Below are positions 14,916 to 47,823 of a stretch of 64,000 bases of DNA, piece by piece. The DNA comes from Cricetomys ansorgei (Eukaryota; Chordata; Mammalia; Rodentia; Nesomyidae). Location: NCBI GenBank assembly GCA_026225945.1, contig JAMJFZ010000107.1, positions 63,763,501-63,827,500 on the forward strand, read 5' to 3'. Within the stretch, counting starts at the first letter, position 1; every line of letters begins with the position of its first letter. Under the pieces are notes generated by a model. It was not told where the DNA came from. It did not search any database and saw nothing but the letters and a program-made list of their open reading frames with translations. Position numbers and translations under genes: made by a program.

Positions 14916-14956
<41 letters not shown>

Positions 14957-25263: not shown

Positions 25264-27548
25264 ATGAGGCTTCTGTTTCTTCTCTTTCTCCTTCTTATAT
25301 GTCTTGCTCAGACAGCATCAGGTAAGCTGTGAACCCACCTGGATCAGTGAGATGGTAGATGATTTTGGAGCCTTGAGTAAGCCAGACAAATTAATAACTC
25401 AATCATGAAGTGAAATCTATAATAATAAAATAATATCATGACATGGCTACAAGAAGCATAATGTATCTGGTTGCTGCTACAGTCAACTTGACAGAATAAG
25501 TATCACATGGATGAAGGACCTCTAGGTACATCTACAGGGGACTCTAGGGCATTATCTTGCTCGTGTTCTTTGATCCGGGAAGACCTGTGTACTTCCGGGG
25601 CGATCTGTGGAGGAGGCACTGGATTCTCCTGGACCTAGAGTTACAGGTGGCTGGGGGCAGCCTGATGTGGGTGCTGGGAATCAAACTGATGTCCTCTGAG
25701 GAGTACTTAGCGTTTTGAGTTCTTGCCGGCCTGGAACTCACTATGTAGACCTCAAACTCAGATGACCCTGCTTCTTGAATTCTAGGATTAAGAATGTACA
25801 TCACCATGTCTGGCCACAACGCAGGGTTCTAACATACGATAGCAACTTAATTCTTTGCAGCAATAGTTATAAAGTGGGTATTAGCTGTGATGTAGAAATG
25901 ACGTAACTTGCTTCCAAGCCACACAGACTATTCCATAGTGAAATTCACAAGTAAAATTAGTTCAATTCTGCAGATAATACTATTAAATACCCAACAATCT
26001 TAGTGAGTTTAAACAGGGATGCTTTTCAGTGTGAATATGACCCATGCAATTTGAGGTATGTTTATTCTAAAAGTTTAATTCTTATTTACCTGAAAATTCA
26101 GTTTTGATGAGGTGGTCTCACATTTTACCTGGTGATCTTGTATGAAAAAAAAAATAATAATGTTCCAATCTTCAAATCTTAAAGAGCAAAGCGATTCATC
26201 TTCGCTGAGGTGAAAATCCCCTCAGGCCACGGGGCTGCTCTCCTCACTGCAATCCATCGGTCCAGGTGTGGCTGGCCACTGCAAAAGGGAAGGACCTCCA
26301 AGGAGTTCCACACTAGCAGTTATAAGGACTTGAGTCCCCAGAAAGCATAATTTCTGTTCAAAATTTCCTGGCAGGGCTCATAGCTATATGTACTTAGGCA
26401 AAATATAAGATAATCATATTTTTGTGTCAAAACGACAGAGAGCCATACGTATTTGTTGAACAACTTAATGGAAGAGAGAGTGAGGAGGGGAAGATGGATA
26501 GATGATTGGTAGCTTACAGATGATAGCAACGATGGGCATATTCATAGACGAGGAATGTGGTTGTGGAGTAGACTACAGATAGAAGCATATGTCTATATCT
26601 GCGTGTTTTCTGCTGGAAAAGCCTACTTGCCTCTACTGGCAGGGCAGCTATATTTAGAAACAGGGCCTCATTCCCAGGTTGTGCTTTCCATCTCAACACA
26701 GCTCCTCAAAAAACCTCAAGCTTTGATAGAAACAATATCCAGCGATTCCTCGTGGCTCTCTTTCATTCTTTGGCTTTCTTGGCTTTGGAAGGGATTTGGG
26801 TTCTCTCTACATGCACCCTACTCTCTCTACGGCTTCATAGCTTCCTAGTCTGACTCACTGGGGCATACGACCACCGACACTCATTACTTACAGAGGCCCC
26901 TTAGTGTATGACATCACTCCAAACAGGATGGGGTGCACACCAATCCTGTTGTTCACTCACTGGGTGTTGCCTGGTGTTCGCTGCACACTTGTAAAGTTTC
27001 GCACCGTCTAGGTGGAAGGCACTTCAGGAAGGCTTTATGAGGGACACGCGCGAGGAAGGGGATTACAGTCACAGTCTCGGAACTCAGTCATGTGAGGTGC
27101 TCTCTCTGATCTCATGAAAATGAAACTAAGCTGCACACACTACCAGCTTTCTGAAGGACCAGGAAATAGAAACAGAGCTCGTTCTGAGTGCTACGTGGCC
27201 TCGGCTCCCACAGGCTACCTCTGCCTTGATTTCCTTTCTAATAGTCTGCCAATAAGAAAATGGTTACCGGTCAGGCCACACGCGTGAGCCATCAGAGAGT
27301 TAGTGCGGGGCTTGTGGACTGTCTTGCTCACCCTTGCTAAGCACAAGCAATTATAGTATCTCTGGTTTAATGAAGTTTTACGTGTGTCTTCTCCACTCCT
27401 TTCCCTTTTCCTTACAGGACGTAGAAGAAATTTGAGATTTCGTCTGTGTGAGAAAAAGGGTGGCATGTGCAAGTCTCAGAAAACCCACGGGTGCTCCATC
27501 CTCCCTGCAGAATGCAAAAGTCGATACAAACACTGCTGTCGGCTTTAA
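25264..27548 (+). CDS. Defb33: Beta-defensin, Defb33-like, atypical cysteine spacing
   Basis: Exons 25264-25321 and 27418-27548, 2096-base phase-1 intron (donor GTAAGC, acceptor CCTTACAG), encode 62 residues. Residues 1-19 are a signal peptide (MRLLFLLFLLLICLAQTAS). The mature peptide starts with a basic stretch, GRRRNLRFR. Cysteines lie at 30, 37, 45, 52, 59 and 60, giving C-x6-C-x7-C-x6-C-x6-CC. In classical beta-defensins the second and third loops are x3-4 and x9; here they are x7 and x6, the same total. The core KSQKTHGCSILPAECKSRYK matches what I recall of rodent Defb33, and the length agrees; I could not check this. There are 13 Lys/Arg and 2 Glu (+11). Family knowledge: a secreted host-defence peptide; Defb33 has no firmly known function. 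It is the last plus-strand gene before the cluster reverses direction. Confidence 0.88.
25590..25815 (-). mobile_element. B3-type and B1 SINE fragments in the Defb33-like intron
   Basis: gttacaggtggctggggg ... gtgctgggaatcaaactgat is B3 antisense; it is followed at about 25728 by a B1 antisense fragment (gcctggaactcactatgtag to accatgtctggc). Confidence 0.65.
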
Positions 27549-27609
27549 CCTCAGCTTCCTGACATGCGCAGTACACTGTGAGAGTAGGTGCCTGCTTTGA
27601 CTTCCGCGT

Positions 27610-27615
27610 AATAAA
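27610..27615 (+). terminator. Polyadenylation signal of the Defb33-like gene
   Basis: AATAAA 61 bases after the stop codon. Confidence 0.8.
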
Positions 27616-28059
27616 GACATCATCGTGGACGCCTATCCTTTCCGAGGGTGTAAATTTTCGGTGAAATGCTAGCGAGCTGGGGAAGGAAGAATATGTTGGG
27701 TTCAGGGCCCTGTGTTCCCAGGTTCGTAGCCTTGTATTCAAGAAACTGAAGTAAAGCCTCACACATTTGTAAAAGCAGCAAGAAAACTCTGCTGAAGAGT
27801 TTTGGGCTAAAAGCAGGGGAGGCTGATATTGAAAATGCCCAATTTCTGTCTTGTCTTTCCCATCTCAGTGAAGGCGAGTAGTTCCGTTTGGGGAAAGAGT
27901 AAGTCAGAAAATGGATGGAATGAAAACACGAGGCAAATCTGTCGATGAGACTCAAAAGTTGAAACAGATGAGGGCGGTGGTTTGGGATGGCCCCTGTCAG
28001 CTCGTATGTTTGGCTGCTTGGTCCTCAGTGGAACTGCGTGGAAAGGATTGGGAGGTGTG

Positions 28060-28330
28060 TCCTTGTTGGGCTTCACTAGAGATGGGCTTTGGGGTTTCAA
28101 AAGCCCAGTTGAGGTCCAGTTTGATTTCCCCTCTCTCTCTGCCTATAGTTTGTGAATTCTGTGAGCCTCTGCTCCAGAGCCATGCCTGCCTAACTGCTGC
28201 CATGCCCCCTACCACGATGGTCATGGATAACCCTCTGAAAGCATAGACAAGCCCCCCAGTTCAATACTTTCTTCTATCTATTGCATTGGTCATGGTGTTC
28301 CACCACAGCAGTAGAACAGTAACTAAGAAA
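28060..28330 (+). mobile_element. ERVL/MaLR-like LTR fragment
   Basis: Its end, ggtcatggtgttccaccaca-gcagtagaacagtaactaag, is the 3' part of a common rodent ERVL-type LTR; compare 46223-46650, which ends catagcaatagaaccctaac. Confidence 0.5.
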
Positions 28331-28584
28331 ATGAGTTAAATGAACAGCTGTAAAGTTGAGATGGAGTCACCAGTGACTTCACAGAAAGCTGGCAGAGCTG
28401 CCTCTGAGAAACGAATCTTGCTCCTTCCCATGTAGAAATGTCTGATTAAAAAGGAAGTCACTGATACATTAAATGAGGCAGAGGTTTTGGAATACATAAA
28501 ATGCCCCCCCACACACACACACATATTAGAGGAAATAATCTAAAGACAGTCAATAATGATACAACTGATTTGTTTTCATTGTTT

Positions 28585-28905
28585 GTGGGGGGATTCATAT
28601 GTGTACATGTGTACTCAGTTGTGTGTGAGTGTGTGGAAGCCAGAGGCTGGTTTAGGTATCTTCCTCTAGCACTCTCTGCATTACTCTTTGAGATAAGGTG
28701 TCTTGACTATACCTAGGCCTTCCGTTTCAGCTAAACTGGCTGGCTAGAGAACCCTGGAGATCTTGATCTCTCCTCTGACTTTGCCTAGAACTACTCACTA
28801 CATCCAGCTTTAAATCGGTGGGTGCCAGTGATTCAAACTCAGGGCTTCATAATTGTTCAATGAGGCTATCTACTCCACTGAACCATTTCCCTATTAGTAT
28901 AAATT
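28585..28905 (-). mobile_element. B3-type SINE, antisense
   Basis: gtgtggaagccagaggctgg, gcttcataattgt and gaaccatttccc in the usual antisense order; diverged. Confidence 0.5.
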
Positions 28906-29694
28906 ATTTTCCACAGCTCACTGAACTACACTATGCCTGGTGACCTGAGAAGATTTGGAACTCTCTCCTTTTAGGAGAACATTAATAATTCACCAAAGAT
29001 TATCAATAAGGCTTGTGAACCGTTTTGGGAGTATCCGTTCTTCATAATCCAGGGACAGTAAGAAAAATTCTACCCTCTAAAAACCCACTGATGCCACAAA
29101 GAACATGGATTCTCAAAGGCCAAATTCAATACTCAGTGATCTAGATTCAAGTTGGGCATGGCTATTGTAGGCGTCGTCAGAATTGAAGATACAACTAAGA
29201 TAGTTTCGACCTCATATCTACGGCAATTTTGTGTTGCTGCTAAAATGGACAGAGGACACTTCACTAGAATGGCTACAAGCAAGCAAAGCTCCCACAGGCT
29301 GCACCTTAGTCCCCTAGATGACTTGTTTGGCACCTTTGAGATCTGGAACTTGTGCTCTCATCTTAATGCTTACAGTGTCTTCTTGGTGTCTACCCTGTGT
29401 CCCACACCTTGAATGTTTGGTGTTCACATCAACCTCTGCCCCACCCAATACTCTCTGCTACTCTAGTGTTCCCGTGAACTCATACTACATTATCTGCCAC
29501 ACAAAATGAGTCCCAACGTCTCTTAATAACCCCCTCCTTTCTAAATCACACACTTTCAAACCTCTGAGAAGCTATAATTTAAGTGTCCATCATTCAACTA
29601 GTCCAAAATGGAAGTCTTCCTCCAGATTCTACATCTCCATGGACAAATCCTCATGCTTCCATTTCTTGCTTGTCTTTTATTTTCCATTTATTTG

Positions 29695-29832
29695 TTTGTT
29701 TTAATGCAGGGTCTCATGTGGCCTGGGTTGACTTGAAACTATGTTGCTGCGGATGACATTAAGCCGCCTGATCCTACTGCCTCTGCCTCTCACACACTAG
29801 GATTACTGTCATGTATCACCATGTTTCTCTAA
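29695..29832 (-). mobile_element. Old B1-like SINE, antisense
   Basis: tgcagggtctcatgtggcct, gacttgaaactatgttg, tgcctctgcctctcacacac, aggattactgtcatg. Diverged B1 complement. Confidence 0.55.
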
Positions 29833-29883
29833 GCACAACTGCATGCCCCTGACACCGTCTTAACACCCGAACACCCAAAAACA

Positions 29884-29939
29884 CCCGTGTGTGTCTCTGT
29901 GTGTGTGTCTGTGTGTGTGTGTATATATATATATATATG
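29884..29939. repeat. (TG)n(TA)n microsatellite
   Basis: Imperfect TG repeats passing into (ta)n, 56 bases. Confidence 0.9.
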
Positions 29940-30469
29940 GATAATATACTAACTGGCTTCTATATTTCTACCTTCTGCCTTCCAGTTCTTCTCCAGATCA
30001 TTGGAATTCCTTGTGTTCCTTTACAGTACAAAAGACAAATTAAATGCATTTAATGTCTAAAGTGCCCCACATGTCAACTATTCCTACACAGGCTTTGTGT
30101 CTCATGTTTTAATTTCTGAATTCTCCCATGACGGCAGTGAAAATTCTAGCATGAAAGTCGTGCATATTTTTCCTTCCCATCAGAAAATATTTAGATCACA
30201 TCTACTTTGCCTGAATAGTTCTTAACTTTTAAGGCTCTGCTGAGACATGACCCTAGCAGATAGATCATTTTGATTTACCTGTAGATACAATTTCCATGAC
30301 TCTGAGTTTCCTTATAAAGCTGACTTGGCTTATACCTCCAGCTCACCAGCACAGGTCTGATATACAGAAGATACTCAGGAGTTAAAAATTAGTAAATAAA
30401 TGAAGAGAATGACACAATGAGGTCTCAGTGTTCTGATATAATTCAGGAAGGACAGGAAACGTAAATTCC

Positions 30470-32735
30470 TCAGGTCATGGTTCTCACACAGCAGAAGCTC
30501 CTGCCAGGACATAACCCTGGCATACGAGTACAATTTGTCTTCCTCCTCAGGCACACACTTGATTGAGAGTCACAGTAATGGTGTTCGTAATCTGTAGAAG
30601 GAACATAAGCTGTTTTAGGCAGAAATCCTTGAGCTTCCTGAGCAGGAACTGATACCACTCAGTAGGATCAGGAGCCCATAGACTCACTGTTGAAGAAGGT
30701 GCTTTCCTTCTGTTCTGAGTCTTTCCACTTGGTCTCGCCTTCCTGTTTACAGCCTTGAGGAGCTGGTTATAAATGAAAGTATTTGTGTTGTAATTTGAAG
30801 AGTAAGAATCTTCAAATATCATGAAACTTGCCTATTTAGTTACTGGAGCCCTGTCAGGGAGCTGCTCAAAAATGCTGTCTTGAAGCAATGTGTTAAAACT
30901 TTATGCTTTCCTCTTTTTGGGACAGGATACCATTGAGAACATAATCCAATAGCTTGTTTCCCTAGAAGGATTATATGAACAGGATTATATTTAATATATT
31001 ATTAAAATGAATGAAGAAACACTCCAAAATCTATGATTTCCAGGGTTACAGACCCATGTTTAATAATGTATGCATCATAATAAAATGAGATTGTAGATCT
31101 AAATTTCTAATTTTGTAAGCTAAAGGACTTAGAATGGGAGACACTATGAAAGGTAGAGGTTTCCTAGCCAGAAAAACAACTTTGCCCCTTACTTAAGGCT
31201 GAGTCTAGCTTCTCGCCTGCCTCTCACTTGGAGGAAAAGGAAAGCTCATACTGAGCACAGAGGCTGTGGTGCTCCCTGTGGTCTGGCTTGTCTATTATGA
31301 ACCATCAGTGGAGGTTACCAACTTCAGAGCTCAGACTGCAGACGTCCCAGAGGTGACCCTCGGCATCACCGGAGAAGCTTTCTGGACCATGTCCATTATG
31401 TGTAAAACCAAGACCAGGGTTGAACGCAAGATCTACCCATCCCATGTTTATCCTAACCTGGCTTCAGCCCTGCTTCCATGGACCAGTTTGGCACCATCCT
31501 ATTCACTGAAAGGGAAGTGCCTAGATGTAGGCTCGTAGCAGAGACACTCTACAGACTGGCCTTTCACGGGATCCTGTGTGGTCTTCATCACTCCAGTGTA
31601 GCTTGGGAACTTTGTCATCTAACATCCCTCTTCCTGGACCCAGCTTACACTTACCCAAATGCTGTAAGCAGGTGTCACCATGGAAACTTCTAGGAGCTCT
31701 CCCTGTTCCTCCTCCGGAGAGCCCCTTATAGTTTATCATCTATCTACTTGACTGAAAATTAGCTCAACAAAGAAATTGGATCCAGATCATTATTTTGAAT
31801 GATACAGTATTGCTACTTATTCCCAGTGGCCATTATTTATAAACTGTTGCCAAATAAAGGGAGGACCATGGATGAAGGAGAGAACTGTTCTAACCCGTTC
31901 CCTACCTCTGAGCTCATTGTCTATTGGTCTTTTGAATTGGTACTCTGGAAAGCACAACGAGCCCTTAACAGACGCAGGAAGTAAATATTTAATATTTAAT
32001 ATATTTAATTTTAACATATTTTATATGTTTATATAAAGAGCTAGTATTAGGGGGAAAGCGTGAGCCGGCAGGAAGACTAAAGTGGGCAGATGACACCTAA
32101 ATTGCTGTGTCAGGTTGCAAGGTGGAAATTTTCATGACCTCCCAAATGAAGGAATCAAAGTTCTCTGAAGCCCATTAAACACCACTGTGACTCACAGCCC
32201 TATGCCGGGATGTAAGGGATGAACACTAGAAAGTTAAACCACATCCCCCCCTCGTTCTTTACCCGGCATTCTTTCCTCAAGATAGGGAACACAATTTAAG
32301 TGTCTACAAAAGTGCCATGGTTCCAATTGTGCAGAAAACTTCTTTAAAAAAAAATTTAAAAAGCTTTAAGCTTTGTCTTCCTGGATTTCCAGCCAGTCCT
32401 TAAACATGCTGTCTCCAGACCATGGCAAATGGGAATGATTGCTATCACTCAAGGTCACATCAGTAAAGGGAGTGGGTAGTGAGGCTGAGAAAAGTCCCTT
32501 TCTCTCCTTCATAGGTTTCAGTTTTCTTCAAAGTTCAAGGTTTGTGTGGAATCATGGTTTTTAAGACTCTCCCTTTAACATATTTCCACTCTACACTGAT
32601 TGTTGCTCCCTAGAAGCATCTTTTTGGAAGCTGAACTCATTGGAACTCAGATAAGAACGATGCTGGATAGGACTTACCTGCCATGACTTGAGAAATAAAG
32701 AGGACAACTATGATGAGAAAGTAAAATAACTTCAT
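30470..32735 (-). CDS. Unassigned beta-defensin-like gene, atypical spacing
   Basis: Read on the minus strand: exon 1 is 32735-32678, exon 2 is 30591-30470, with a 2086-base phase-1 intron (donor GTAAGT, acceptor CCTTCTACAG). They encode 59 residues. Residues 1-19 (MKLFYFLIIVVLFISQVMA) form a clear signal peptide. The mature part begins DYEHHYC; cysteines lie at 26, 33, 40, 47, 53 and 54, giving C-x6-C-x6-C-x6-C-x5-CC. The cysteine count, CC ending, exon structure and neighbourhood say defensin; the spacing is not classical. Charge is low (6 Lys/Arg, 3 acidic, plus His23 and His24). Exon 1 is too short to show up as an open frame, so the gene is easy to miss. I do not recognise a named ortholog. 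The open reading frame, splice sites and leader are all intact. No AATAAA is obvious soon after the stop on this strand, a weakness. Confidence 0.82.
31180..31700. other. Unassigned stretch in the intron of the minus-strand gene
   Basis: A plus-strand frame at 31266-31538 (90 codons) overlaps another at 31478-31693. Neither has a recognisable domain, signal peptide or splice framing. I treat them as chance frames or remains of an unidentified repeat. Confidence 0.4.
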
Positions 32736-34269
32736 GGCACCAACTTCAGTGGGCAATGCCTTGAAGTCCCTGGAAGAGATCAAGAAATGGCACACAATAC
32801 TGAACAAAATATAATATCCTCTTTTACAGGAAATGTCTGATTGTGTTGAGACTGCCAGTTAAAATATACAACAAACTGGATAGCCAGGAGTTAAACAATA
32901 CTTAACAACTTTTGATGCAGAGCTGAGTGCATTTCTTTTGTGAGTACCTAATGGGCCAAGGATTAGGGAAGAACAGAAACAAAGATAGTAGAAGTGAAAC
33001 TGACGAAATGGTCTGTTATGTGAAGAACCTCTGTTAGTCTGTGGCCCTGTTTTGTTTGATTTACTCTCATGTAACTATTACAATATCCTACCTCCACTCA
33101 AAACCTGTTTCACAGAAATCACAGAAGTGCCCACAGAGAATGCCACATGCCTAATGAAAGAGGAAAAAAAAAATGTTGCCTACTGCTTACCTCTTAAGAT
33201 CTTCCTTATGGGGTCTCTACTCTCTCAGGATACAGTCACTCGTGTCTCCAGAAATATATGACATCCATTCCACACCCAGTCACCATTGGCTCCCTTTCCA
33301 TTCGTTGTCAGTGAGGGCTGGCTCCACCCACCTGGACCAATAAGAGCTGTCAAATATGTTGGGATGACCCTGCTGATTCAGGTCTCTCATTAGATGATGG
33401 TGGAGTCCCATGACTGACAGAACCTTATGCTCTTGGCTCTTGCATTGCTAAGCCCAACACGGTCCTTGGGTACATGAAAGCTGAGGGGCTTTCCTCAATG
33501 AATCATTATAAGAAATGCCTCGAGAAGTGGCTGACTTGAAATTTTTGTGCTTTTCCACTTCTCCCTTGATTGGTGATCCATTTTCTTCAGTTATATATTA
33601 GGACCAATTACAGGGAACATATTGTGACTATTGTAACTTTTCTTATAGTTAAAAGGAAATTATTCTTAGCATACCTAGGCACTGATGCTAATCACAAGGA
33701 ATTAAGATAAAAAATTAATTTAGAAGTATTAATTATGGTGGTAGGGCTTGTGTATGGTGAAACCAGAGCTACATTCAGCAGTGTGCCTCTGGATTCTGAA
33801 TTCTTCACTATACTAGATATTTTACTATTATTTCACAAGAATTGGCATCAAGTTCTTACTAATAATAACTTTCTATAGACTAGTGACAATTTAGGAGGCA
33901 CCCATCTTTGAATAATTCAAAAAAAAGGTGACAAGCTAAAAAATCAACTCTACTCTTCTCAATGGGTGTTGCTGTTTGAAAACAGTTACTATTCATAAGT
34001 TTATACCAAAAACACAAAATGCCTTTATTATTTGTAATCACGTAATTACTTCTGACTTTATTTAAATTTTAAATATCAGTGCAGACAACCTAAGAATGTA
34101 AGGTTTTTCAAGTTTTTATACATTTTTAAAAGAATAAGATGTCCAGGGGTTAAAAAGTTGGATAATGTAATCAAAATGTATTAGATACATTTATAAAATA
34201 GTCAAAAGACAAAATACATTGTATAAATGTATTTTCAAAAAATAAAAGTTTTATCTTTAAAAAGTACTA

Positions 34270-35650
34270 ATTTCTTAAAACAAGCACAAATGAAGATGTC
34301 TCCAACAAACAAAAACTGGGGGGGGGGGGGATTTGTCACACAAGATTGTTAAAGAGAGTTCTTCAAAGTGAAATGAAAACAAATTAGACATGAAAAGATA
34401 TGGAAGAATAAAAGCTACTGGTGGAGTCGGCACACAGGAGAATGTGTTTGGCCAGTGTAACGGAAGAGTGACAGGTACATCAGTTTTAATTTTGGTATAA
34501 AAGTTAAAGGACAAAAATATTAAAACCGTGACTACAAAAATACTCATAGAAACACATTATAAAATATATAAATTGTAAAGTCAACACCAAGTGTCAGAGA
34601 AGAAGTCCAAGTATAGAATCTTAGAAGACATTTGAAGTTTAACTTTATCAGCTTATTAGACTGTTAGTGATATTTATAACCACATAGAAAATATTTCAAG
34701 GATGTGCAGGAACAGAAAATGATCAAAGTCACACGGCACATCAAAGCAAGAAAGAAAAGGGGACAGAAGAATGACAAGAACCCCCCCTCCAAATGAACAA
34801 AGTGGCAATATGTAGTCCCCCCTCTCTATAATTACTCTAGAAGTAGATGAATTAGACTTCACAATCTAGGTGCGAAGAAGCTAAATGTATAGAAAAATAT
34901 TCGGATACATCATGGACAGAGCCTCACTTTGTAGTTTGAACATTTGTTGGCTGATAGGTGAACGATACTCCATGAAAGTGGCAATAAAAATATCAAAGCA
35001 AAATGGCTATGCTCATATTGGACCAGCTGAAAAACTATCACAAAATGCAGAGAAGGCTGTTATAAAATGACAAAATGACTGGTGAAAGAAGATTTGATAA
35101 TAGTTTTGAGCAGCTATACAACCAACATCAGAGAAAGCATATAAAGCATACACTGAAACTAAAGGGAAAAGTACACAGCCATCTGCTAACAGTAGCAGAG
35201 TCCAGTACCCTGCTTTTAATAACACACAGATCAAGATAGAAAAGACATTTTTTTTAAAAGTTGGGCTTAGAGAACACTGGAGAAGAGATGGACCCAAAAG
35301 ACACTGCCGGCACGACACATGCTTCTCAAGTATAGGCAAATCATTTTTCCAGCACAGACCACATGTTGGCTGACAAGTTTCAGCATTAAAAAGAGTGAAA
35401 TAATAACCTTTATCTTTTCCCATCACAATGAATGAAGATTAGAAACCAGTAGCAAAAGGAACAATGGAAGAATAACAGATATATAGAAACTAACATACAC
35501 TTGAACAATTCATAGGTCAAAGAAATTAGAAAATGTGTGTGGACAATCAAGAATGATAAAACATCCTTTTTTTTTTTCTTTTTGGAATATAAAAAAAGTT
35601 TCAAGTGGAAAAAAATACAACTTACACCTACCTTATCCATGAGAGATATC
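34270..35650 (+). mobile_element. Possible old L1/HAL1-like remnant
   Basis: A-rich on the plus strand. The piece around 35200-35520 reads like a decayed L1 ORF2 endonuclease part (an FPAQTTCWLTSFS stretch followed by SHHNE, where L1 has SDHN). Many stops and frameshifts. Low certainty. Confidence 0.35.
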
Positions 35651-35699
35651 ATTACTATTATTATTATATTGTTTTAGTTAGTATATTAAACAATATTTA

Positions 35700-35905
35700 T
35701 GAGTACATACATGTGTCTGTGAGTGCCTGCCGAGGCCAGAAGGGGGCGGTGGATGCCCTGGTGCTGGAGTTACAAGCAGCTGGGAGCCCCAGACACGGAT
35801 GCAGTGAACCGGACTTGGGCCTCACTCCTGAGCCATTGCTCCAGCCGCCAGCTCTCTTGCTGTTCAGGTTTTCTGCTCTTCATTTATTGCCTGTGTGTTC
35901 ATGAG
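35700..35905 (-). mobile_element. B3-type SINE, antisense
   Basis: gccgaggccagaagggggcg, ggtgctggagttacaagcag, cctgagccattgctccagcc: B3 complement. Confidence 0.8.
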
Positions 35906-36581
35906 TCTCACTGAAGATTTTAATTTTTTTTTTCATTTTTTGCAACTTGACTTTAACACCCATGATGTCTGGTGTTCTTCCAAACTATGATTGTCTTGTT
36001 TCTGTGCATGACAGGCGATGTTTTCATTGTGTCCTGGCACCTTGGCTATTGTGTAGTTCAGACAATTCCTGTTTAGCATTCTTTCCTCGACAGACAGCGT
36101 CTGTGTTCATGCATTCCTAGAAGTCCAGGTTTGAGCATGCTCTGCTACCAGCTTTGTCCTTCTTATTTCTTATTTTTATTCTTTTCTTCAATCTCGTTTC
36201 TCCGTGCTGCTATCTGAATGGCTTCCCCAGCTCCATCAAACATTCCCTAGCTGTGTTGAGTGTGCGTTTCACTGATCAGCTGAATTTCTGATCCACAATT
36301 GTGCCCGTGGGTACCATCTGTTCAAACACTATAGATCAGTTTCATCATCACTTGTGGGGTTTTCAAATTGAAGGCTTGTGTTTTACAAATTTAAACAGTT
36401 GTTACATTATCAATCTTTACCTTTTGTGGTACAATTTTATAGTATTATCTCGTGTGATTTCAAACTAGAATTTGTTCTTATCAGCTCCTGTTTTTTGTGA
36501 TTTCTTTCTGTTTGACAATTTGGGGATAGTAAATCATATTTAATTTAATTAATTTTGGGGTTTTGCGTGGGTTTTTTTGTT

Positions 36582-36662: not shown

Positions 36663-37339
36663 ATTTAATTAATTTTAATCTGCTAAAATCTGTGTCCTGA
36701 AATTGAGCATTAACAGTTGGTGACTACCTAAAATTTTTCCAATTTCACACTATCTGAACTTAGGGATCTTGACTGGAGCCATTTCCTGCATCTGCACAGG
36801 CTTAGGTCAAATAAGAAAAGTCACTTCACTTTTCTGTTATGCTAATCATGGTGCCTGACTTCCTGTAATATCCCACATTTATAATGTGCACTATTGACCC
36901 CTTCGCCTGCCTCGGGACTTTCCCATAAGTCCTTCAGTCTGCCAAACAGTGTGCTTTGCTTCCTGATGACACTCTGGCTTTCGCAAAGTCCCTCTCCAAG
37001 TGACCTAATTTAACAACCCATCAGTGGCAAAGCCTTCATACATAAGCCAAGCCTACACCAGCCACAAAGGGTTGCCCAGGCTCTGTTATAGGGATTTAGC
37101 AAGCACTTTGACCGAGTTGTTTGTTTTAGTCTTTTAGGCTTTGGAAAAGAACAGTTTAAATTTGCACTAGAATTAGAAAATGGAGGATTTAATCCAGTTG
37201 ACAGATGGATGACAATGTCTCAAGAAATATGCAGGAAAGAAATTTTATGATGGGCAAACTGCAGTTTTCTATAGAAAAATTCTTTATTCATAGTAGGGTT
37301 GATTTTTTTATAAAATTATGATAATTTTGTTGTGCCCAG

Positions 37340-37690
37340 TTTTCAAAATCCCCCTCCCCAAGTACCACCAGGAGACCACCAGTTCTGATGCAAAAGCAAG
37401 GAGTCTTTATTCTGCAGAGCAAACCAGCACACTGAGGTCTGGCACCTCCATGCAAGATGGTCTACCCTGAGCAGCTTCCTACAAGGGTTTTTAAAGGGAG
37501 CAGGGGATCTCTCTGATTGGTCAGAACCCAGGCAGTGGATTGGCTTGTTAAACGTTATGCAGCAACAAGGATTTCTGGGAAAGTGAGTACTTGCCATTAA
37601 ACAGAGAGGTTTATGAGAAAGCAAGTACTTGACATTAAATCGAGGAGAGGTTAGTGCCTTTACCACTAGGAGCGCAGGGTTTTTCAATCT
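37340..37690 (-). mobile_element. ERV1 (gammaretrovirus-like) solo LTR
   Basis: On the minus strand there is a CCAAT box (gaccaatcagagag, 37512-37525), then tttaaaaacc as TATA, then AATAAA (37411-37406), then ttttgcatcagaactggtgg and cctggtggtacttgggg, the usual U3-R-U5 order. No gag, pol or env is attached. The long minus-strand frame here is an artefact of the LTR. Confidence 0.7.
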
Positions 37691-37813
37691 CATTAAATCT
37701 GAACTGATAATTTATGTAAGTATAGCAGTAATAGAATCTATTCACATTTTAAAATATTATTTTAGTCAAAGTTTTGATAATATCTAAGGTGCCTTACTAG
37801 CTCCAGTAAGCCA

Positions 37814-37980
37814 AATATATATAAATATATGTATGTATATATATATATGTGTGTGTGTGTGTAAATATATGTATATATGTGTATATATATGTGTGTGTAA
37901 AAATATGTGTATATATACATATATGAATATATGTGTATATATGTGGGTGTACATATATGTATATATACACACACACACAT
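37814..37980. repeat. TA/TG alternating repeat
   Basis: About 165 bases of ta, tg and tatg units. The Tyr/Ile/His-rich frames over it are artefacts. Confidence 0.92.
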
Positions 37981-39389
37981 AAGGTTCACACTGCTAAACT
38001 TGATGCTCTCAGGAAAGCGACAGGATAAAATACAGGTCTGTGGAAGACAGAAGGCAGTACAGCCATGGAAAAGGACAGGGTAAGAGTTAAGGAGAAAGAG
38101 TTAAGGAGATACCATCTGTGTTTGAAAAGGTGCACCCTGCAATTCAGAATGTTAGGTAAGCCTAACTAATTTAACATTCCTCTTTCTTAAAGAAGATCAA
38201 ACAAATCTGGAGAAATCCTTGGAAGACTATTTAACAGATACGGTAAAGCTTTTTCTACGTGATGTCTTAAACCAATAATTCAGAAGAATGCTGAAAGGAA
38301 ATTCTAGCATTGCTCTGTCCAGAATGAGACCCTCTGCTTAAAGCTCTGTCTAAATCCATTTAACCAAAGCAGCTTAGTCATCCGTGAACTTTCTCTCTCT
38401 ACTTAATTTAACTCTTATTCTTGTTCTTTTTTTGTTCTACAATGATCTGTAATTGTATTTCTTCTAAGACAAAACTATTTTTTTCTCCTTAATGAAAACA
38501 TATGCCTGGCATGGTTTTTCTTTAAAAGATAGTACTATTTTATTTATTTCCCATATGTAATTGTTTCCTTTCATCCTATGGATCCTTCCAGTGGATTCCA
38601 TCACACATGTTAATTAGAATTTTTAACTTTAGCAACCTTAATTTCTAGTAAAAACTAGGAAAAGGGATCTTGTAATCTTTAATTTTTGAAAGGATTTCAT
38701 AATCTTTAAAAAGTATGTTTCCTCATAACATATTTTATATGTGATTCAGGAAATTCTTACCAGCAGACCCCAGTTCCCCTTCTGTAAGAAAATAAGAATA
38801 GACATTGAGCTATCTAAAAAAAAGAAAAAAAAAAAAGGTATTCTTTGTGTGGGACACTGGGAACTGTATGACATCATTGTGTTGTAGATTGTCTTCTTGT
38901 CAGTAATGTTCACTGTTAGCAACTGACACTGTTAGTAATAAGCATTCAGGCCAGGAGCTTTCCATTTGTTTGTTTGTTTGTTTGTTTAAAGAAATCAATG
39001 GTATTACTCTAGAGCACATTAAAAACAAAAAAAAGCCATCAGCAAAGGACATGGTTTGGGTTTTCATAGGATCCCAATTCTTTTGTCACTTTAATGCATG
39101 GGGACGATTTGCAAATTAGGATTAAGCTAATCTCTTGGTTGGGTAGAAAAGGCTTGAGACCTGGTGTTATAGGGAACCCCCTTGATGAGAATCCACCTTC
39201 ATTGAGAAAGCACAGCTGAGGGCAGAGGCTGAGAGTCTGTGCTGTGTAAAGGGTGTCCGCGTTCCTCACAAACACTGAAGAGCGGGTGGCGGAATCTTCA
39301 GAGGTCCGGGTGAATCAGAACAGAAAGGATAAGTCGAATGTGTTTTTAAAAGAGTGTTCATTAGCCAAGCTTTCTCTTGGCTTAAAAGG

Positions 39390-39592
39390 CTCTCTTCTTT
39401 TCTTTTTCTTTTTCTTTTTTTCTTTTTTTATTTGTTTGTTTTTGTTTTTTTGGGACAGAGTTTCTCTGTTGTAACTCTGGCTGTCCTGGAACTCACTCTG
39501 TAGACCAGGATGGCTTCGAACTCACAGAGATCCACCTGCTTCTGCCTCCCAAGTGCTGGGATTAAAGACGTGTGCCACCACCATCCAGTGAA
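39390..39592 (-). mobile_element. B1 SINE, antisense
   Basis: Begins with a long T-rich tail (39395-39450), then gggacagagtttctctgttg, ctgtagaccaggatggcttc, gtgctgggattaaagacgtg. Young-looking. Confidence 0.95.
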
Positions 39593-39597
39593 ACTTT

Positions 39598-39830
39598 TAA
39601 AATGCGTATTTATTTTGTTTTATTTTTACGTGTATGAGTGTTTTACCTTTCCGTGTGTGTATGCACCACATATGTCCCTGCTGCCCTTGGAGGCCAGAGA
39701 GGGTGCCAGATCCTCTGGAACCCAAGTGACCTCGTGAATGTGGTCTGTGAGCTACCATGTGGGTGCTGGTAGCTAAATGTAGTTCTTTTGCAATAGCAAT
39801 GCTTTTAACTGTTGAGCCATCTGTGACGAT
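39598..39830 (-). mobile_element. B3/B2-type SINE, antisense
   Basis: ggaggccagagagggtgcca, accatgtgggtgctggtagc, aactgttgagccatctgtga. Directly abuts the B1 at 39390-39592. Confidence 0.8.
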
Positions 39831-40731
39831 CAATGTTGGATTTTTTTTTCATGGTGTTTAATTTTTGGTATTTGAGTGATACCAACAAAGCATATCACCC
39901 TTGAAAACAGCTGGTTTTGTAGCCGGACATGATTAACCCTTTAGGAGTCAGAGGTCCAGGCCAGCTTGGGCTACAGAATGAGACCCATCTGAAAACAAAT
40001 TTTAAAAGCAAAACTTAAACCAAACCACTTTTTCATATATAGCATTGAAAGAAGATATGATAAGTGCTAATATCTACACAAAGCTTTTGGATTTGTCAAG
40101 CTCTTTCTGGCACACATCTTGAAAAATTATCAAGCCTTTTCAGAATTTTATAAGAATCAATCTAACTGGTTTTTTGCACCCCCAGACAGACTGAAAGAGG
40201 AAGTTCACTTGTGGCTGCAGAACCACAAGGTGGCTCAATAAGGCCAGTTCCTTCACTTCCATCATCTGCACACTCTGGTAGTTCCCCTTATGAGAAGCCA
40301 GGGTGGGTCTCATATGTATTTATTTGTTTAATTAAAGTGCATTGCATTGGAATACATCTACTAGAAAGTAAAAATATAGAAGTCTTAGAATGATTTGCTA
40401 CCACAAGATACACATGAAGCCCATGCAGACGATTATATTTAAAAGAAAAAGAAATTAACAGAGTCAGTGCGGCTGTGGAAAAACTACGGAAAGAGTATGA
40501 AGATTCCTCAAAGGGGGCAGAATGGCACCACCACGTGACCTAGCCAAAAAAAAAAAAAAAACCTAGTTTTATTTTTTATTTGGATTTGATTTTTTTAATT
40601 GAATTATATACTTAGTATATAACCAACAGAAATGGAAGTACAGACTAGAAAGGATAGTTGTTCACACATGTGCACAGCAATTTAGTCACAATAGCCTAGG
40701 TGTGCTCTGGACCTGTCTGTCTGCTTGTCTG

Positions 40732-40990
40732 TGATGGCTAATCTTGCTTGTCAATTTGACTACATCTGGAATCAACTAAAACCCAAGCAGCTGGACAGAT
40801 TTATAAGGGATTTTTTTTTTTTTCTTGATTGAATCATTTGAAATGGGAAGGCCCTCCCTAAATCTGTCCGGTGGATGGTCTCTCCTTCTCACTCCCTGGT
40901 GGGCCTATCTGTCCGCTGCAGACCTCTCTCCTGAAATAACCCCTACATCACCCTGTGAAGAGTCTACTTCATGAGTGGCGTGCAGGAGAG
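40732..40990 (+). mobile_element. ERVL-like LTR, 5' part
   Basis: tgatggctaatcttgcttgt-caatttgactacatctggaa, aaacccaagcagctggacag, gattgaatcatttgaaatgg: start of a common rodent ERVL-type LTR. A short later block of it (ataaatccagatcttttaag) appears at about 41950, beyond the ERVK-like LTR. Confidence 0.55.
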
Positions 40991-41379
40991 GGGGTGTGGG
41001 TCTTTAGGTCGCTATCAGGAACCCGGGGGATCTAATAACTGAACAGGATAAAGAGTTCCCGGATCTGTCAGGCAGTGGTGGCTAAAATGTCATTTAATTC
41101 AAGGGCTTGAGTGAATTCATTGGGGTTACGGGAGTGGGGGAATGCGTAGGTTTAAAACAGGTAATCAATTCTGCCTATTGCTGCTGGCCCTCTCAAAGGG
41201 GCTAGGGCTGAGTGGACCCATCTGTGACACAGGAGGGTGTGGGACTCCTTGGACTGGAGGGTTGCAGGAGAGAGGCCAAAAGTGCCCCCGCACTCTGGAA
41301 GAAGAGATGCGGGCTGTGACACTGGGGGCAGCCTTCTCCCCTCCTAATCCACGGAGGTCCCTGGTCAAAAATATTAGTT

Positions 41380-41680
41380 ATAACTTACTTGCTTCACAGA
41401 AGCTAAAGGAACATGTTTATCTGCATTAGGGCGGGTCCCTTGCTTAGGTGCGCCCCGCCCTGCCATGCTAATTAAGGCTTCCCCGCCTGAGGGAGAAGCC
41501 CCACCTTCCCGGAAGGATATTTAATAAGGAAAAAGGTTTTGAATAAAGAGTTTCGTGTCCATCAGACTTCGCACTCCCGAGACTTCTTTTGAGTTTCATC
41601 CCTTTGTTCTCAGCAGCAAGCAGGGATCACAGTCCATTCCCGGTCCAAGGAACCCACGTGTCCATGTCCCGTCCTGTCTG
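41380..41680 (+). mobile_element. ERVK-like LTR
   Basis: Same family as 16590-16900 but in the opposite orientation. Blocks: gcttcacagaagctaaagga, catgctaattaaggcttccc, aataaagagtttcgtgtcca, gacttcgcactcccgagact and gtccaaggaacccacgtgtc. AATAAA at about 41542. No viral gene visible. Confidence 0.65.
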
Positions 41681-42879
41681 TCGGTGTCTCCCCCCCCCTT
41701 CCCTGTGCTTTCCTGTGGCACGCTCGCTTGTTCAGCTTGAGTTCCTTCCCCCCTACCCCCCTGCCCGGCCAGGGTGGGAAACTGGGCAGCTTCCCAGCTA
41801 ACTGCAGGCTGGGGCAGAGCTGTGGCAAAGGCGCGGGAGGACCAAGCCAACAGGAGGGAAGGGCCCGTGTTTCTTTTCTTTTCCAGGAGCAGAGACACTA
41901 GTGCCCTCAACCCGCCATGCGAGGTTTCACCCGTTTCCATAGGGTACCACATAAATCCAGATCTTTTAAGGTGGGGACATCCAACTTAAACTTAAACTTA
42001 AACTTCTAAAGGCCATAGAAGAAGAAAAGGGTAAATGAGGTGTTATTAATGAACAGACTTTAAATTTTGCAAAATTAAGCAGCACTGGAGCTGAATTGAG
42101 GTGGCAATTGGTCAGCAATATAAATGTACTTAAAATAGAAAATTTAATATTACAATAAAAATCAGTTTAAAAAATCAATAGAAAGGTGTATTCAGATATA
42201 TCTTATTTTCTACTTCGGGGAGCACATGCACTGTCTAGGTTGCTGCCTTCGATGAGCAAGACCTTTGACTTCTCTGCGTGCTTCACTGTACAGAAGTAAG
42301 CTTGCAATGCATCTTCTGTTCAGATAGTACCCTGCTGCATAATGAGAATACGAGAGCTGCACCAACCAGTTGGAACTCAAGGAAGTCCTGGAGCACTGTG
42401 GTCAAGCTCCGCTCCTCCGTTCTGCCAGCCCTAGTTCATAACATCTTGTCGCCCATGGCCCCTGTTGTCCTGAACAAATATAACATCTAATTGCCTCCTC
42501 CTTTTTTGGAGGTTTGCAACACCTGTTTCATAGTTCTGCTGTCTCCATTATTTATTAACATAAGGTTCGCATATGTTTTTAAAATAACTGTTTAGCTCGG
42601 GCTTGTTTGCTCCCTTTCACTGGGATCTCAGAATAGATAACACACCTCCTATTTTGTCCTTTCCCTCAGCATTTGCCCAACTACTTCACCTCTGAGGACC
42701 TTATTTGCATCTATGAAATGTGGACTTAGATATGTCCACTTAAACTTGTTTCTCAAATAAACCGTGAATTTCTTATCATTGCAAGAATTCCTCAGCTATC
42801 ATAAATATAGATGATGCTTGATCTTTGAGATTCTTTGTGGGTGCATAAACCCGAGATCCTACTAAGAGTACCAAATTGT

Positions 42880-42892
42880 CCAGCAGGTGGCG
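42880..42892 (+). promoter_or_regulatory. Candidate CTCF site
   Basis: ccagcaggtggcg matches the CTCF core consensus at all core positions, plus orientation. Occupancy cannot be judged from sequence. Confidence 0.45.
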
Positions 42893-43435
42893 ACAGCCTG
42901 TCTCCCTGCATCGTCTTTATTTCCTGCACTTTGTACATAGGATGTCAGGGGCTGGAAGAGAGAGCAAAGCGCTTTGCACGCTGTAGAGGTACTTAACTGA
43001 GATGCCTATGGAAATCTCCAGATCCTTTGATTTTTAAGGTGACATGGTTACCATATTTCTTATCAAAATCAAGCTGAAGAAGTGATGGCAATGAACTAAG
43101 AACTTAGATTCTCACTATTCTGTCCCCTGAACACCAGCCTTCCTTGACCCTAAAATATTAGAGCCTAGCATTTCTCACCTTTGATGACCATCTGCCTGCC
43201 ATCTGCAGAAGTGGAACGTGTCTGAGTTTCTCCATATCAGTGGGCATTACAGACAGCCCATCAAGTGCTTCCTACTCAGAGTTGCCCTTTTGTTCAGGAC
43301 AGGGAACACATGAGAGACATCTTGCATTCACTAGGAAGATGGAGACTTCAGAAAAGAGAACCTTCTTCAAGAATTAAATTTAAATAGTTCCAAAGGAAAG
43401 TGCATTTTCAATAGTAGTTATTCAAATTAAAACAT

Positions 43436-43475
43436 TTTAGCAGAGTGGTGGTGGTGCACACCTTTAATCCCAGAC
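43436..43475 (+). mobile_element. B1 5' fragment, abruptly cut
   Basis: gtggtggtgcacacctttaa-tcccag is a B1 start, ending after 35-40 bases at the junction with the inverted 23-base copy described in the findings. Confidence 0.7.
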
Positions 43476-46222
43476 TCAGACACGTTCCACTTCTGCCCCT
43501 GTTTCTCCAAGATGTTCCCTGGGATCCAGTCATTCCCCTCAGAGAAGAGTCATGTCAAACAACGTTAATATGATAGAGAAGCCAGGCATTGAGACTGCAA
43601 TATACTGCACACATGGCTTCTAGGCAACAGTCATAGTCTCGTCTCTTGTGGGTACAATGAAGTTAAGAATGTCAGCTTTGCCTGGTATCACTGTAACTAT
43701 CTACCTGCTAACTACTCCATGATGCAAGTGGGACACGTCCTTCCTGAGACAGAACTAGAGCAACCTTGTACTGGGAGGCAAGTCCTTGTTGCTTTAAGTC
43801 CTACCTCTGCTCTTCTCCATGTGTAGAAAAAGACTTTGCATGTGATCTAGTTTGAGTCTATGAATTGTACATGTTTGTTTAGTGTGACTAACTAAAAGCA
43901 ATGGGTGATCTTCTGGTTTCTATCTTCTTGAAAACTCAATTCTAGCTCTCACAGTATGGGTTTCTGGACCTCTGCATGGAGAAAGATTAAGTTATGGGTT
44001 GCACATGAGTGCCTGCCTTAAAGGTTTCAGGGCAGTGGAGGGAGCCCTGGTGCCATCTTTGATGTGTTAAAGAAATTCTTGTAGTGTTTTCTGTGTGGCT
44101 TGTTCCAGCATGTTTCAGGAGGACTGAGCTAAAAATAGCAATATAGTTTTTTTTTTTTAAACCTGAAACCCTCAAGGTAGGACATCTATAAATTCTTTTA
44201 AGCAATTGGTTCTGAGATTGAAAATACATACAAGAATTACCATAGGAGACTGACTGAACAGCAGGCAGGTTTCACAGACTTCTGTCAATCAATGAATTTA
44301 TTTTAAAGTAGGAAAAGTATGTGTAAGAATATGCATGGGTAAATAGCTTCATCTAGTAATTTCATCATGTGTCCTTATGTCAACGTGTCATAATACATAA
44401 TAAATATATGTAACTTTACTTTCTAGCTAATATAAACATATGACTTGCAACAAATAAATGATTCAGTTAACGGTGTGAATAACAGAGCTAGCTAGTGAGG
44501 AATGAATGAAATGGACCTGGATCTCACATCTGCAGAGTCTGTGATCTGGCCCTTTACTTCAGAAGATCTAATAATTCCCAGGGATGCCCATGATTGAACA
44601 CAGCTTCCGAGTCAGAAGAACAAAAGAGTAGCCAAACTGTAAGCCAGATGTCGTTAGGTACTGAAGAACAGCCACTCCTTTATGTATTATTCAGTGTCAA
44701 GGTCCTTTGTACAGACCCAGAGACAGAACCTTCTATACTTCCTATATCTCCCCTTGATATCTTTTGAAATCTTCCATTTGTAAATACATAATATACTGAA
44801 TGTTATTTATTTATTACTGTTTTTAAGCTCAAGGACAATTTTAGCAGAATTTTGGAGAAAAGCTGTGAAGAATCCTGGCTGTAAATCCAGCCAGGCATTT
44901 GGCAGCTGCTCAAAGGAGGGAGACAGAGAAAAGAAAAAATTGTACCATCTGAGTTAGGTTGGCATCAAGGAGAGCCACTCGGCAGATAAGCAGCTACACA
45001 GAGGGGAGGGGAACATTAAGAAAGAATGAAGAGGCCCAAGTTACCAGAGAAAGCACACTTAGGCTCTGGCCAACATCTGAAAGAAAAACACAGAAGAGGA
45101 AAGAAAGAAAAAGTCAATTAGATCGTATAGAACCTCAAGGGAGATCTGGAGCTATTATGTTAAGGGACAGTGATTCTGGGAAGGAAAGATACATTAGCTC
45201 ATTAAAGGACTAATTAGCCCTACTATCTCTTTAGCATGACTGAAGATAGAACCACCTTCCTGAGGATTGGTCCTTTGGCCAAGTGATTGACACACCCAAC
45301 TGGAAAGTTAGGTCTCCATCAAGTCAGAGATTCGATTCCCTTGACCATAAGGAATTTTCCCATAATCCTTTGTATCAGTGGCCCTTATTGCATCTGCAAC
45401 ATTCTCACCTCTGAAAAGGACAATCCTAAAATCATTTGGGATACAGGTTGAGACTGGAGAATAGGTATAATCTATTTTTACCATGAAAACCTAGAGATTT
45501 TCAAAACTGTTCGCCAGAAGGAACTAACGTTTGGATTGGAGTTTTAGTTTCCCATCCTCATGTACCGCCTCTAGGATTTAGTGTTGTCTCACGAGAATGC
45601 AAACATCAAAAAGATGGGAACCCATGATCCTGTGGTAATCCCTCCGAATATACTGTAAAGGACATTGATGCCAATGACAACATCTTTACAAACCCTTTGC
45701 AACCGTCTGCAAACATCGGCTTGCAGCTGGTGATAACTCGTGCTGACCTGCAAATTTGCACTGTTTCCATTGTTTATTCATTGAGCAGGATCTACTGCAC
45801 AGCTGGTCTTCTTGTCACATGGTGAGACCAGTTGGGAGCTCACTCTTTCCATGAAATTGCATCTGGTAAAAATGTTGGCATATCTGGCGTTTTCTCTGTG
45901 CCTTAAAATTCCCTGACCACTCTGTAGTATTTCCTACCTCCGTCTCCTCTCCATTCTAACTTGACATTGTAAAATCTCAGCTAGGAGCAGGTACATCTAG
46001 GCCAAGTCCCTCACTAAGACAAAACATGGAATATCAGGACACTACAATTAATGTCCAGATGAGGACAAGACACATGACCAAAGAAAATACAAAATAGTCA
46101 CATCTACTCCAAGATTCCAGCCCTGCAGGGAAAACCTTCCAGTTGTGATTTGAATTCCTGTATTTCCTCAGGTTTCTGACCACATTTCTACATGGAGCAG
46201 ACTCTTATAGGCAGTGTATGAA

Positions 46223-46650
46223 TACTGGGGCTGTGCTGGCTAGTTTTAAACCAAGGTGACATAGGCTAGAGTTATTTGGGAAGAGTGACCCTCAGTTAAG
46301 AAAATAAATCCCATCAGACTGGCCTATGGACAAGACTTGTGTGGCATTTTCTTGATTGATGATTGGTGTGGGAAGGCCCAGCCCACTGTGGGTAATGCTA
46401 CCCCTGGGGGGGGGGTTAATCCTGGGTTTTATAAGAAAGAAGTCTAAGCAAGCCATGAGAAACAAGTCAGACAGTAAGCAGCACCCCTTCAAGGCCTCTT
46501 CATCAGTTCCTGCCTTCAGGTTCCTTCCTTGAGTTCTTCCCCTGACTTCCCTGGATGATGGACTATAAGCTGTAAGATAAAATAAACCCTTTCCTTCACA
46601 AGCTGTTTTGGCTGTGATGTTTATCATAGCAATAGAACCCTAACTAAGAC
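46223..46650 (+). mobile_element. ERVL-type LTR (near complete)
   Basis: gtgctggctagttttaaacc, gggcattttcttgattgat-like text, ggaaggcccagcccactgtg, ttttataagaaagaagtcta, caagccatgagaaacaagtc, aataaaccctttccttcaca and atagcaatagaaccctaact, the full order of a common rodent ERVL-type LTR. Confidence 0.7.
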
Positions 46651-47177
46651 TTCCTCCTCAGGCCCAGCACCAGGATGCCATGTGCTCACCGCCTCCTCCT
46701 CCTCCGAGAGCTTTTGTACAATACTTTCACTTCTGCAGTGGCTGGTCTCAGGCTGTACTCCGCATCCACCTCACACTAGAAAATTCTTTCACATCCAACT
46801 GCCTTCCCTATAGGCAGAATATCTTTGGGAAGTTGAAAGAAGAGTCTTAGACTTTGCATTTATATTTATTGTCAGTGATTTTTGGCAAGTTATTCAACCT
46901 GGTTAAACTTTAGTGTCTACATCTATACAACGTGATGAGTAAGCCAGAATGTTTTCAGAGATTGTATACATGAATAAAAATCTTTGCAAATGTTAACATA
47001 TAAAATAAATGAATTTCTTATAGTTTCCCCTCCCTCTGCCTACTTCTTCATTGGCAACAAACCTTCCTTTAATCAATAGTAATGACAGAGCAATGTGTGA
47101 TTTAGACTTGAACATGTCTAAACTCAGGCAACAGGAGCCACGCTCAGATGCATGCCAGGCTCCTTGACTGTCTTGTG

Positions 47178-47823
47178 TCAATTTCTTATTTTGCAGCAAA
47201 CAGTAAAAGCTCTGCAGGGTCCCCGGAAAGGTTCACAGTTTGGTGTTCCCTGCTTCAGGCAGATGCCTCCTCGGAGATAGCAAGGTCTTTCGAAATTGAG
47301 CGCGGTGCTGATAGCTAAAAAGCAAAAGAGAATGTTTGCATAGAATCTGGTAATCTTGAGGTCGTTACTACGGTAGAAATGCTTAGAGATGTCTATTCGG
47401 GGCCTGGGGAAAGAATCTTTGCTGTCATACAATTCACAGTAGCCTAGTGAGTGAGTTTGGTTGTCAACTCGCGTGCCTGTTCGGTAGAGAGACAGTTGAA
47501 GATGACTGTCCTAAGAAGCCTGGAGTGTTGTAAAGACACAATGACCGTCCACCAAAGGAACATTGGCAGCTATCTTCCTCCTTCCTATTTCACTCCCTCT
47601 TCCTCTTTCCTTCCCCTCTTCCGGCAGTACACGGGATAGAGTCCTGTGTCGTGCAAGTGATTTGGGGCCCAGAGGTGATTTCCAAGTCATCCTTAGTTTT
47701 ACTATGGTCATTAATTTGGGGAAAGGAAAAAAGCAAAAATAATAAGAAAGGCCATGATATGTATTTACCATGCAGTACCTGGAAGATGGCAAAGAGAGCC
47801 AGGAGGAAACCATGGAGTCTCAT
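47178..47823 (-). CDS. Unassigned beta-defensin-like gene, atypical spacing, short intron
   Basis: Read on the minus strand: exon 1 is 47823-47769, exon 2 is 47314-47178, with a 454-base phase-1 intron (donor GTAAATAC, acceptor TTTGCTTTTTAG). They encode 63 residues. The leader is MRLHGFLLALFAIFQVLH. The mature peptide begins around AISTALNFERP. Cysteines lie at 30, 37, 45, 52, 58 and 59: C-x6-C-x7-C-x6-C-x5-CC. It shares a Gly-Gly pair in the first loop (RGG before Cys37) and the long second loop with the Defb33-like gene, so the two may be related. Charge about +5 (7 Lys/Arg, 2 Glu). An alternative donor inside CAG-GTACTG would shift the frame, so I prefer GTAAAT. I see no TATA box near the start; an upstream non-coding exon is possible. 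No symbol can be assigned. Splice sites and frame are intact. Confidence 0.85.

Follow-up and report, generated by a model that had tools for sequence, protein, structure and literature searches.

Three adjacent defensin genes of Cricetomys ansorgei are probable orthologues of Defb33, Defb52 and Defb51 and share an old, non-classical cysteine spacing

We analyzed a 64,000-nucleotide stretch of the genome of the rodent Cricetomys ansorgei (assembly GCA_026225945.1, contig JAMJFZ010000107.1, positions 63,763,501 to 63,827,500 of the forward strand; hereafter the window), which carries three neighboring defensin genes whose six cysteines depart from the classical beta-defensin spacing. Comparison with their homologues makes it very probable that these genes are the orthologues of Defb33, Defb52 (Gm15056/DEFB139) and Defb51 (Gm6040) in a chromosome-8-type beta-defensin cluster, and that their unusual spacing is old and conserved. 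Spacings are written below as the number of residues between successive cysteines up to the final CC pair.

Identity and structure of the three genes

A six-frame scan of the whole 64-kb window for the pattern C-x-C-x-C-x-C-x-CC returned five six-cysteine matches, two classical and three non-classical. The scan found no further six-cysteine core between Defb33, Defb52 and Defb51, so the three genes are adjacent. Their spacings, 6-7-6-6, 6-6-6-5 and 6-7-6-5, are exactly those given in an earlier note on this DNA, which had been made from the sequence alone. In all three, the exons join at GT-AG sites across phase-1 introns into complete precursors of 62 residues (Defb33), 84 residues (Defb52, or 59 if the extra exon described below is skipped) and 63 residues (Defb51). 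Because such precursors can be assembled and database homologues exist for every one of them, the three motif matches are not due to chance. The whole six-cysteine core lies within a single exon in each gene, and the spacing is therefore independent of splice choice. For the same reason we rejected a splicing that restores the classical 6-4-9-6 spacing; the earlier note had named such alternative splice sites as what would overturn its reading.

We searched approximately 5.8 billion protein sequences at a threshold of E 10 or better and found 24 homologues of Defb33, 9 of Defb52 and 44 of Defb51. The best matches bear these names and extend over the whole protein. Mouse Defb33 is 85% identical over the whole query, and mouse Defb51 (Gm6040) is 94% identical. 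The Defb52/Gm15056 proteins of hamsters, vole, woodrat and rat are 57-63% identical over 97-100% of the 59-residue query without the extra exon, while the cotton rat protein is 86% identical over 71% of the query and a dog protein named beta-defensin 139 is 75% identical. A koala gene has also been named as an orthologue of mouse Defb33 (PMC11711154). The mouse Defb33 and Defb51 matches sit on contigs of equal length, from which no more than a common chromosome is suggested. The mouse genes are reported with three exons for Defb33, three for Defb51 and four for Defb52 (Amid et al., PMC2807441), and given this one additional exon in mouse, the window genes may by analogy have untranslated exons. 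Two dog proteins go by the name beta-defensin 139, one of them Defb51-like (P0022, CBD139 isoform) and the other Defb52-like (P0049), which reflects either conflicting nomenclature or a transcription unit common to both.

Like vertebrate beta-defensins, all three genes have a signal exon and a short secreted precursor with six cysteines, the last two forming a CC pair. The published motif is C-x6-C-x3-5-C-x8-10-C-x6-CC, of which variants occur (PMC6716921), and neither Defb33 nor Defb51 nor Defb52 fits it. We file them as beta-defensins because of their orthology to named genes, not on the motif.

Conservation of the spacing

The 6-7-6-6 spacing is present in 24 of 24 Defb33 homologues. Among those of Defb51, 34 of 44 have 6-7-6-5, two have 6-5-6-5, one has 6-7-6-4 and seven fall outside the motif; the nine Defb52 homologues comprise five with 6-6-6-5, three (from canids) with 6-6-7-5 and one that is truncated. 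Rodents, primates, carnivores and bats are represented in both the Defb33 and the Defb51 set. The Defb51 homologues also take in ungulates, a whale and a manatee, those of Defb33 a pika and a tree shrew, and the Defb52 set consists of rodents and canids only. A rodent novelty was rejected, since the same spacings are found in carnivores, primates, bats, ungulates and others. As judged from these sequence comparisons, the odd spacing is old and common to placental mammals, and the genes that carry it are named genes rather than a new rodent sub-lineage.

We also compared identity to the window genes between the core and the N-terminal part, using the homologues that fit our length and motif conditions (25 of 44 for Defb51, 4 of 9 for Defb52 and 23 of 24 for Defb33). 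The core was the more similar part in 25 of 25 Defb51 homologues (medians 0.93 versus 0.62), 4 of 4 Defb52 homologues (0.91 versus 0.76) and 23 of 23 Defb33 homologues (0.84 versus 0.66), which suggests constraint on the core rather than adaptive change. Defb51-like copies of cattle and yak have lost or shifted cysteines, and the gibbon copy lacks the Cys1 region (P0023, P0026, P0038, P0041, P0043 and P0044 in all); outside rodents, Defb51-like copies thus appear to have undergone duplication and decay.

An additional exon in Defb52

The Defb52 homologues of vole, two hamsters, rat, woodrat and cotton rat contain a segment with a seventh cysteine between the signal peptide and the core. A tblastn search with this segment matched window positions 30688-30762 on the minus strand (E 8.8e-15), bordered by AG and GT, an exon that is missing from the two-exon Defb52 model of the earlier note. 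This exon precedes the core and leaves the spacing unaltered, and skipping it keeps the reading frame. All six rodent homologues have the segment and no canid homologue (0 of 3) does, so the exon may have been gained in rodents. The window holds no close repeat of it.

Predicted fold

The structural model of Defb33 (predicted local distance difference test [pLDDT] score, 78.5) contains a helix and the three-stranded beta-defensin sheet, with Cys3 at the start of strand 2, and its best structural matches are vertebrate defensins (best Foldseek E, 0.043). The earlier note had assigned the change to the loop between strands 2 and 3; in the model, the altered segment instead lies between strands 1 and 2. 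The two loops from Cys2 to Cys4 sum to 13 residues in Defb33 (7+6), 13 in Defb51 and 12 in Defb52, compared with 13 in a classical 6-4-9-6 peptide (4+9). With this two-loop total unchanged at 13, the Defb33 model predicts that the sheet would be kept and that Cys3 would sit beside strand 2. The second domain of the bird defensin AvBD11, with spacing 6-6-7-6, is reported to have the usual fold and disulfides (PMC9138766). By analogy, AvBD11 shows that such a spacing is compatible with the usual disulfides, and the C1-C5, C2-C4 and C3-C6 bonds would still be expected to form in the three peptides.

Relation of Defb33 to platypus and lizard peptides

We compared the genes with PF08131, the Pfam family of defensin-like peptides, which is based on platypus venom peptides. 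In the Defb33 alignment, 23 of 25 members match it with an E of 1 or less, the lowest being 4.4e-5. When 10 of the 24 Defb33 homologues were scanned singly, three passed the family cutoff of 18 bits; the window Defb33 itself scored 14.9 bits as a precursor and 16.4 bits as its last exon, below that cutoff. Since its spacing is 6-7-6-6 rather than the PF08131-type 6-7-7-6, we liken Defb33 to this family without filing it there. The sole defensin in the PDB returned by the Defb33 searches was platypus DLP-1 (E 0.22 with the sequence, 0.0014 with the profile). No platypus likeness was seen with PF08131 for Defb51 or Defb52. In PDB profile searches, Defb51 had no match and Defb52 matched four adamalysin chains only (E 0.8-1), and the Defb51 sequence alone matched one unrelated chain (E 1.9). 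The likeness to platypus defensin-like peptides that the earlier note had drawn for all three genes is supported for Defb33, although by weak scores. Crotamine, which the note had also invoked, has a long third loop that would not fit these spacings. The Pfam scans also gave conotoxin matches, some of them better than the one to PF08131; in our judgment, these matches reflect likeness in signal peptide and cysteines, and we set them aside.

We next ranked 74 sequences, consisting of 70 Komodo dragon domains (PMC6716921) and four classical mammalian ones, against the profile of each gene. The Defb33 profile placed seven lizard domains with a long second loop at ranks 1, 3, 4, 5, 6, 7 and 9, while seven other long-loop lizard domains ranked 24 to 66 and the classical four ranked 36 to 48. 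The top group (VkBD7a, 7b, 8, 9, 10, 11 and 15) was named after a likeness seen by eye, so that the difference between the two groups (p 0.0003) is descriptive, the group having been chosen post hoc and its rows being related. The best lizard domain scored 14.6 bits and was matched by 0 of 100 of its own shuffles. This preference was absent from the Defb52 profile and scarcely visible with the Defb51 profile, whose best lizard matches were 6-4-9-5 genes. We regard the Defb33-lizard ranking as a weak signal of rank and not as proof. PDB searches with two lizard domains returned one carboxypeptidase inhibitor (E 0.81) for one and nothing for the other. The Komodo spacings listed for VkBD8, VkBD10 and VkBD58 disagree with the printed sequences (PMC6716921, Tables 2 and 3).

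These similarities raise the idea, which we consider unlikely, that Defb33, VkBD7-11 and VkBD15, the defensin-like peptides of platypus venom and perhaps also the second AvBD11 domain belong to one old amniote lineage marked by a long second loop, whose third loop shrank in mammals and brought Cys3 beside strand 2. If this were true, the ancestor of the platypus venom peptides would be a Defb33-like gene and not a classical beta-defensin, and placental mammals and marsupials would have retained Defb33 as a relative of these peptides outside venom. Should the link of Defb33 to lizard and platypus peptides hold, the origin of platypus venom defensins would become testable.

Several results count against our reading of the three genes or against the Defb33 links above. 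Neither Pfam beta-defensin model (PF00711 or PF13841) matches Defb33, Defb51 or Defb52, with no alignment member reaching E 1 or better, and the motif has been lost in 7 of 44 Defb51 homologues. Foldseek gave the Defb33 model no match with an E of 0.001 or less, and the model of Defb51 is of low quality (pLDDT, 54.6). As for the platypus link, the Defb33 profile scores two cyanovirin constructs a little above DLP-1 (E 8.2e-4 and 9.4e-4 versus 0.0014), and an E near 1e-3 with this profile is therefore no proof. Finally, the best of 7400 cysteine-preserving shuffles reached 21.8 bits against the same profile, above the score of the best lizard domain.

One origin or several

The phylogenetic trees took in 8 of 24 Defb33, 8 of 44 Defb51 and 4 of 9 Defb52 homologues, together with the window rows and one panda peptide. 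Ten of the 70 Komodo domains, with an unfit pattern or first loop, were left out, VkBD80b was dropped as a near-copy, and alignment A1 was made without 10 of the 44 Defb51 homologues. The main tree (88 rows, 39 columns) had unsettled bootstraps and long-branch warnings.

It is quite possible, although we would not call it probable, that the shifted spacing arose more than once, with Defb33 coming from an old long-loop amniote lineage and Defb51 and Defb52 separately from classical-type genes. The main tree points this way: it places Defb33 with six lizard long-loop domains (82/89), and with four of them at 96/83, and it nests Defb52 in Defb51 alongside three lizard genes, again with long-branch warnings. 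The rankings above agree with it, as only the Defb33 profile favors the lizard long-loop group and that of Defb51 turns to 6-4-9-5 genes. On the other side, the scores behind those rankings are low, some shuffled decoys exceed them, and the tree outcome varies with the alignment: in a quick tree from a MAFFT alignment, six lizard domains fell in with Defb33 and Defb51 (67), while quick trees from two other alignments united Defb33, Defb51 and Defb52 (59 and 65).

That union in two of four alignments would fit a single ancestor that gained a shifted Cys3 and duplicated locally into the three genes before placental diversification, a history that we hold possible but rather doubtful. The adjacency of the genes favors it. 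So does the approximately unbiased test, which rejected neither one clade of the three (p 0.244) nor a clade of Defb51 and Defb52 (p 0.368). Profile comparison gave 59.5% for Defb33-Defb51, and in tblastn searches of the window, Defb51 and Defb52, alone of the three, found each other (E 0.004-0.005). This history is opposed by the main tree, which parts Defb33 from the other two, by the lizard preference being confined to Defb33, and by the weak profile comparisons for Defb33-Defb52 (13%) and Defb51-Defb52 (6%). The single sub-lineage proposed in the earlier note is no more than a possibility: two alignments unite the three genes and the approximately unbiased test does not reject such a clade, but the main tree sets Defb33 apart with lizard domains.

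That the spacing is merely an artifact of wrong splicing or decayed genes is scarcely credible: the missed Defb52 exon and the damaged Defb51-like copies in other species could be cited for it, but each core lies in one open exon and the same spacing recurs in homologous proteins of many species.

Expression and likely role

In the last coding exon, Lys+Arg against Asp+Glu, counted from the sequence, are 13/2, 6/2 and 7/2 in the three genes. Published reports place mouse Defb33 in late round spermatids (PMC11092205) and in the epididymis (PMC3812073). Cattle DEFB33 is higher in adult than in calf testis (PMC11521603), and sheep DEFB33 is among the genes raised after puberty in the caput and corpus epididymis (PMC10177108). 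A compilation of 23 genes with expression in the caput epididymis includes mouse Defb51 and Defb52 (PMC4127520). Giant panda DEFB139, made as a linear peptide with blocked cysteines, was antibacterial only at high concentrations, above 30 mg/L (PMC6098084). A mouse cluster deletion of nine other genes, Defb33, Defb51 and Defb52 not among them, caused male sterility (PMC3812073). By analogy with these reports, the likeliest role of the three genes is as secreted, cationic peptides of the male tract, where they would act on sperm and microbes.

What stands out is that a non-textbook spacing has held steady across placental mammals in three named genes, none of them recognized by the Pfam beta-defensin models. 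Because the spacing lies outside the textbook motif and those models are blind to it, motif-based surveys may miss these genes. They would also offer a natural experiment in which one disulfide is shifted within a fixed fold. Our literature searches, conducted mostly without subscription papers and on partly accessible sources, turned up neither a mention of this spacing as common to Defb33, Defb51 and Defb52 nor a link of Defb33 to platypus peptides; both are weak negatives.

Features of the window

The coordinates of all features are collected in Table 1. Pfam PF00711 recognizes both classical neighbors (E 3.2e-9 and 6.5e-10). The best PDB match of the first (3262-4249) is human beta-defensin 3 (E 2.4e-14), so the gene is probably the Defb14/DEFB103 orthologue. 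The best PDB match of the second (13680-16157) is human beta-defensin 2 (E 6.6e-6).

Table 1. Defensin genes, exons and six-cysteine cores in the window (window coordinates)
Feature	Position	Strand	Basis
Classical gene 1 (6-4-9-6)	3262-3321 (signal exon) + 4136-4249	+	Motif, PDB match
Classical core, 6-4-9-6	4142-4234	+	Six-frame scan
Classical gene 2 (6-3-9-6)	13680-13739 (signal exon) + 16047-16157	+	Motif, PDB match
Classical core, 6-3-9-6	16059-16148	+	Six-frame scan
Defb33 exon 1, signal peptide, ends in phase 1, donor GTAAGC	25264-25321	+	Exon joining; mouse Defb33
Defb33 exon 2, whole core and stop	27418-27548	+	Motif scan, exon joining
Defb33 core, 6-7-6-6	27447-27539	+	Six-frame scan
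AATAAA 3' of Defb33 stop, possible poly(A) signal	27610-27615	+	Sequence
Defb52 last coding exon, whole core and stop	30470-30591	-	Motif scan, exon joining
Defb52 core, 6-6-6-5	30488-30574	-	Six-frame scan
Defb52 extra 75-base exon, phase 1-1, one added cysteine	30688-30762	-	tblastn, splice sites, frame
Defb52 exon 1, signal peptide, ends in phase 1	32678-32735	-	Exon joining; homologues
Defb51 exon 2, whole core and stop	47178-47314	-	Motif scan, exon joining
Defb51 core, 6-7-6-5	47193-47282	-	Six-frame scan
Defb51 exon 1, signal peptide, ends in phase 1	47769-47823	-	Exon joining; mouse Defb51

Comparison with known systems

The closest counterparts are mouse Defb33, Defb51 and Defb52 and dog beta-defensin 139, which are alike in sequence and spacing and, for Defb52, in the extra segment of the rodent homologues; they differ by species variation and, in mouse, by the one additional exon reported. 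Classical beta-defensins (those at window positions 4142 and 16059, and human beta-defensins 2 and 3) resemble the three genes in their six cysteines ending in CC, signal exon, phase-1 intron and cluster position, and in predicted fold for Defb33, but they have 6-3/4-9-6 spacing and are matched by PF00711, unlike Defb33, Defb51 and Defb52. Platypus DLP-1 (1b8w; PF08131) shares the long second and short third loop of Defb33, although at 6-7-7-6 its third loop is one residue longer. The second domain of AvBD11 (6qet) and the lizard domains VkBD7-11 and VkBD15 have a second loop of 6-7 residues, as here, whereas the lizard third loops are 8-9 residues long and overall identity is low.

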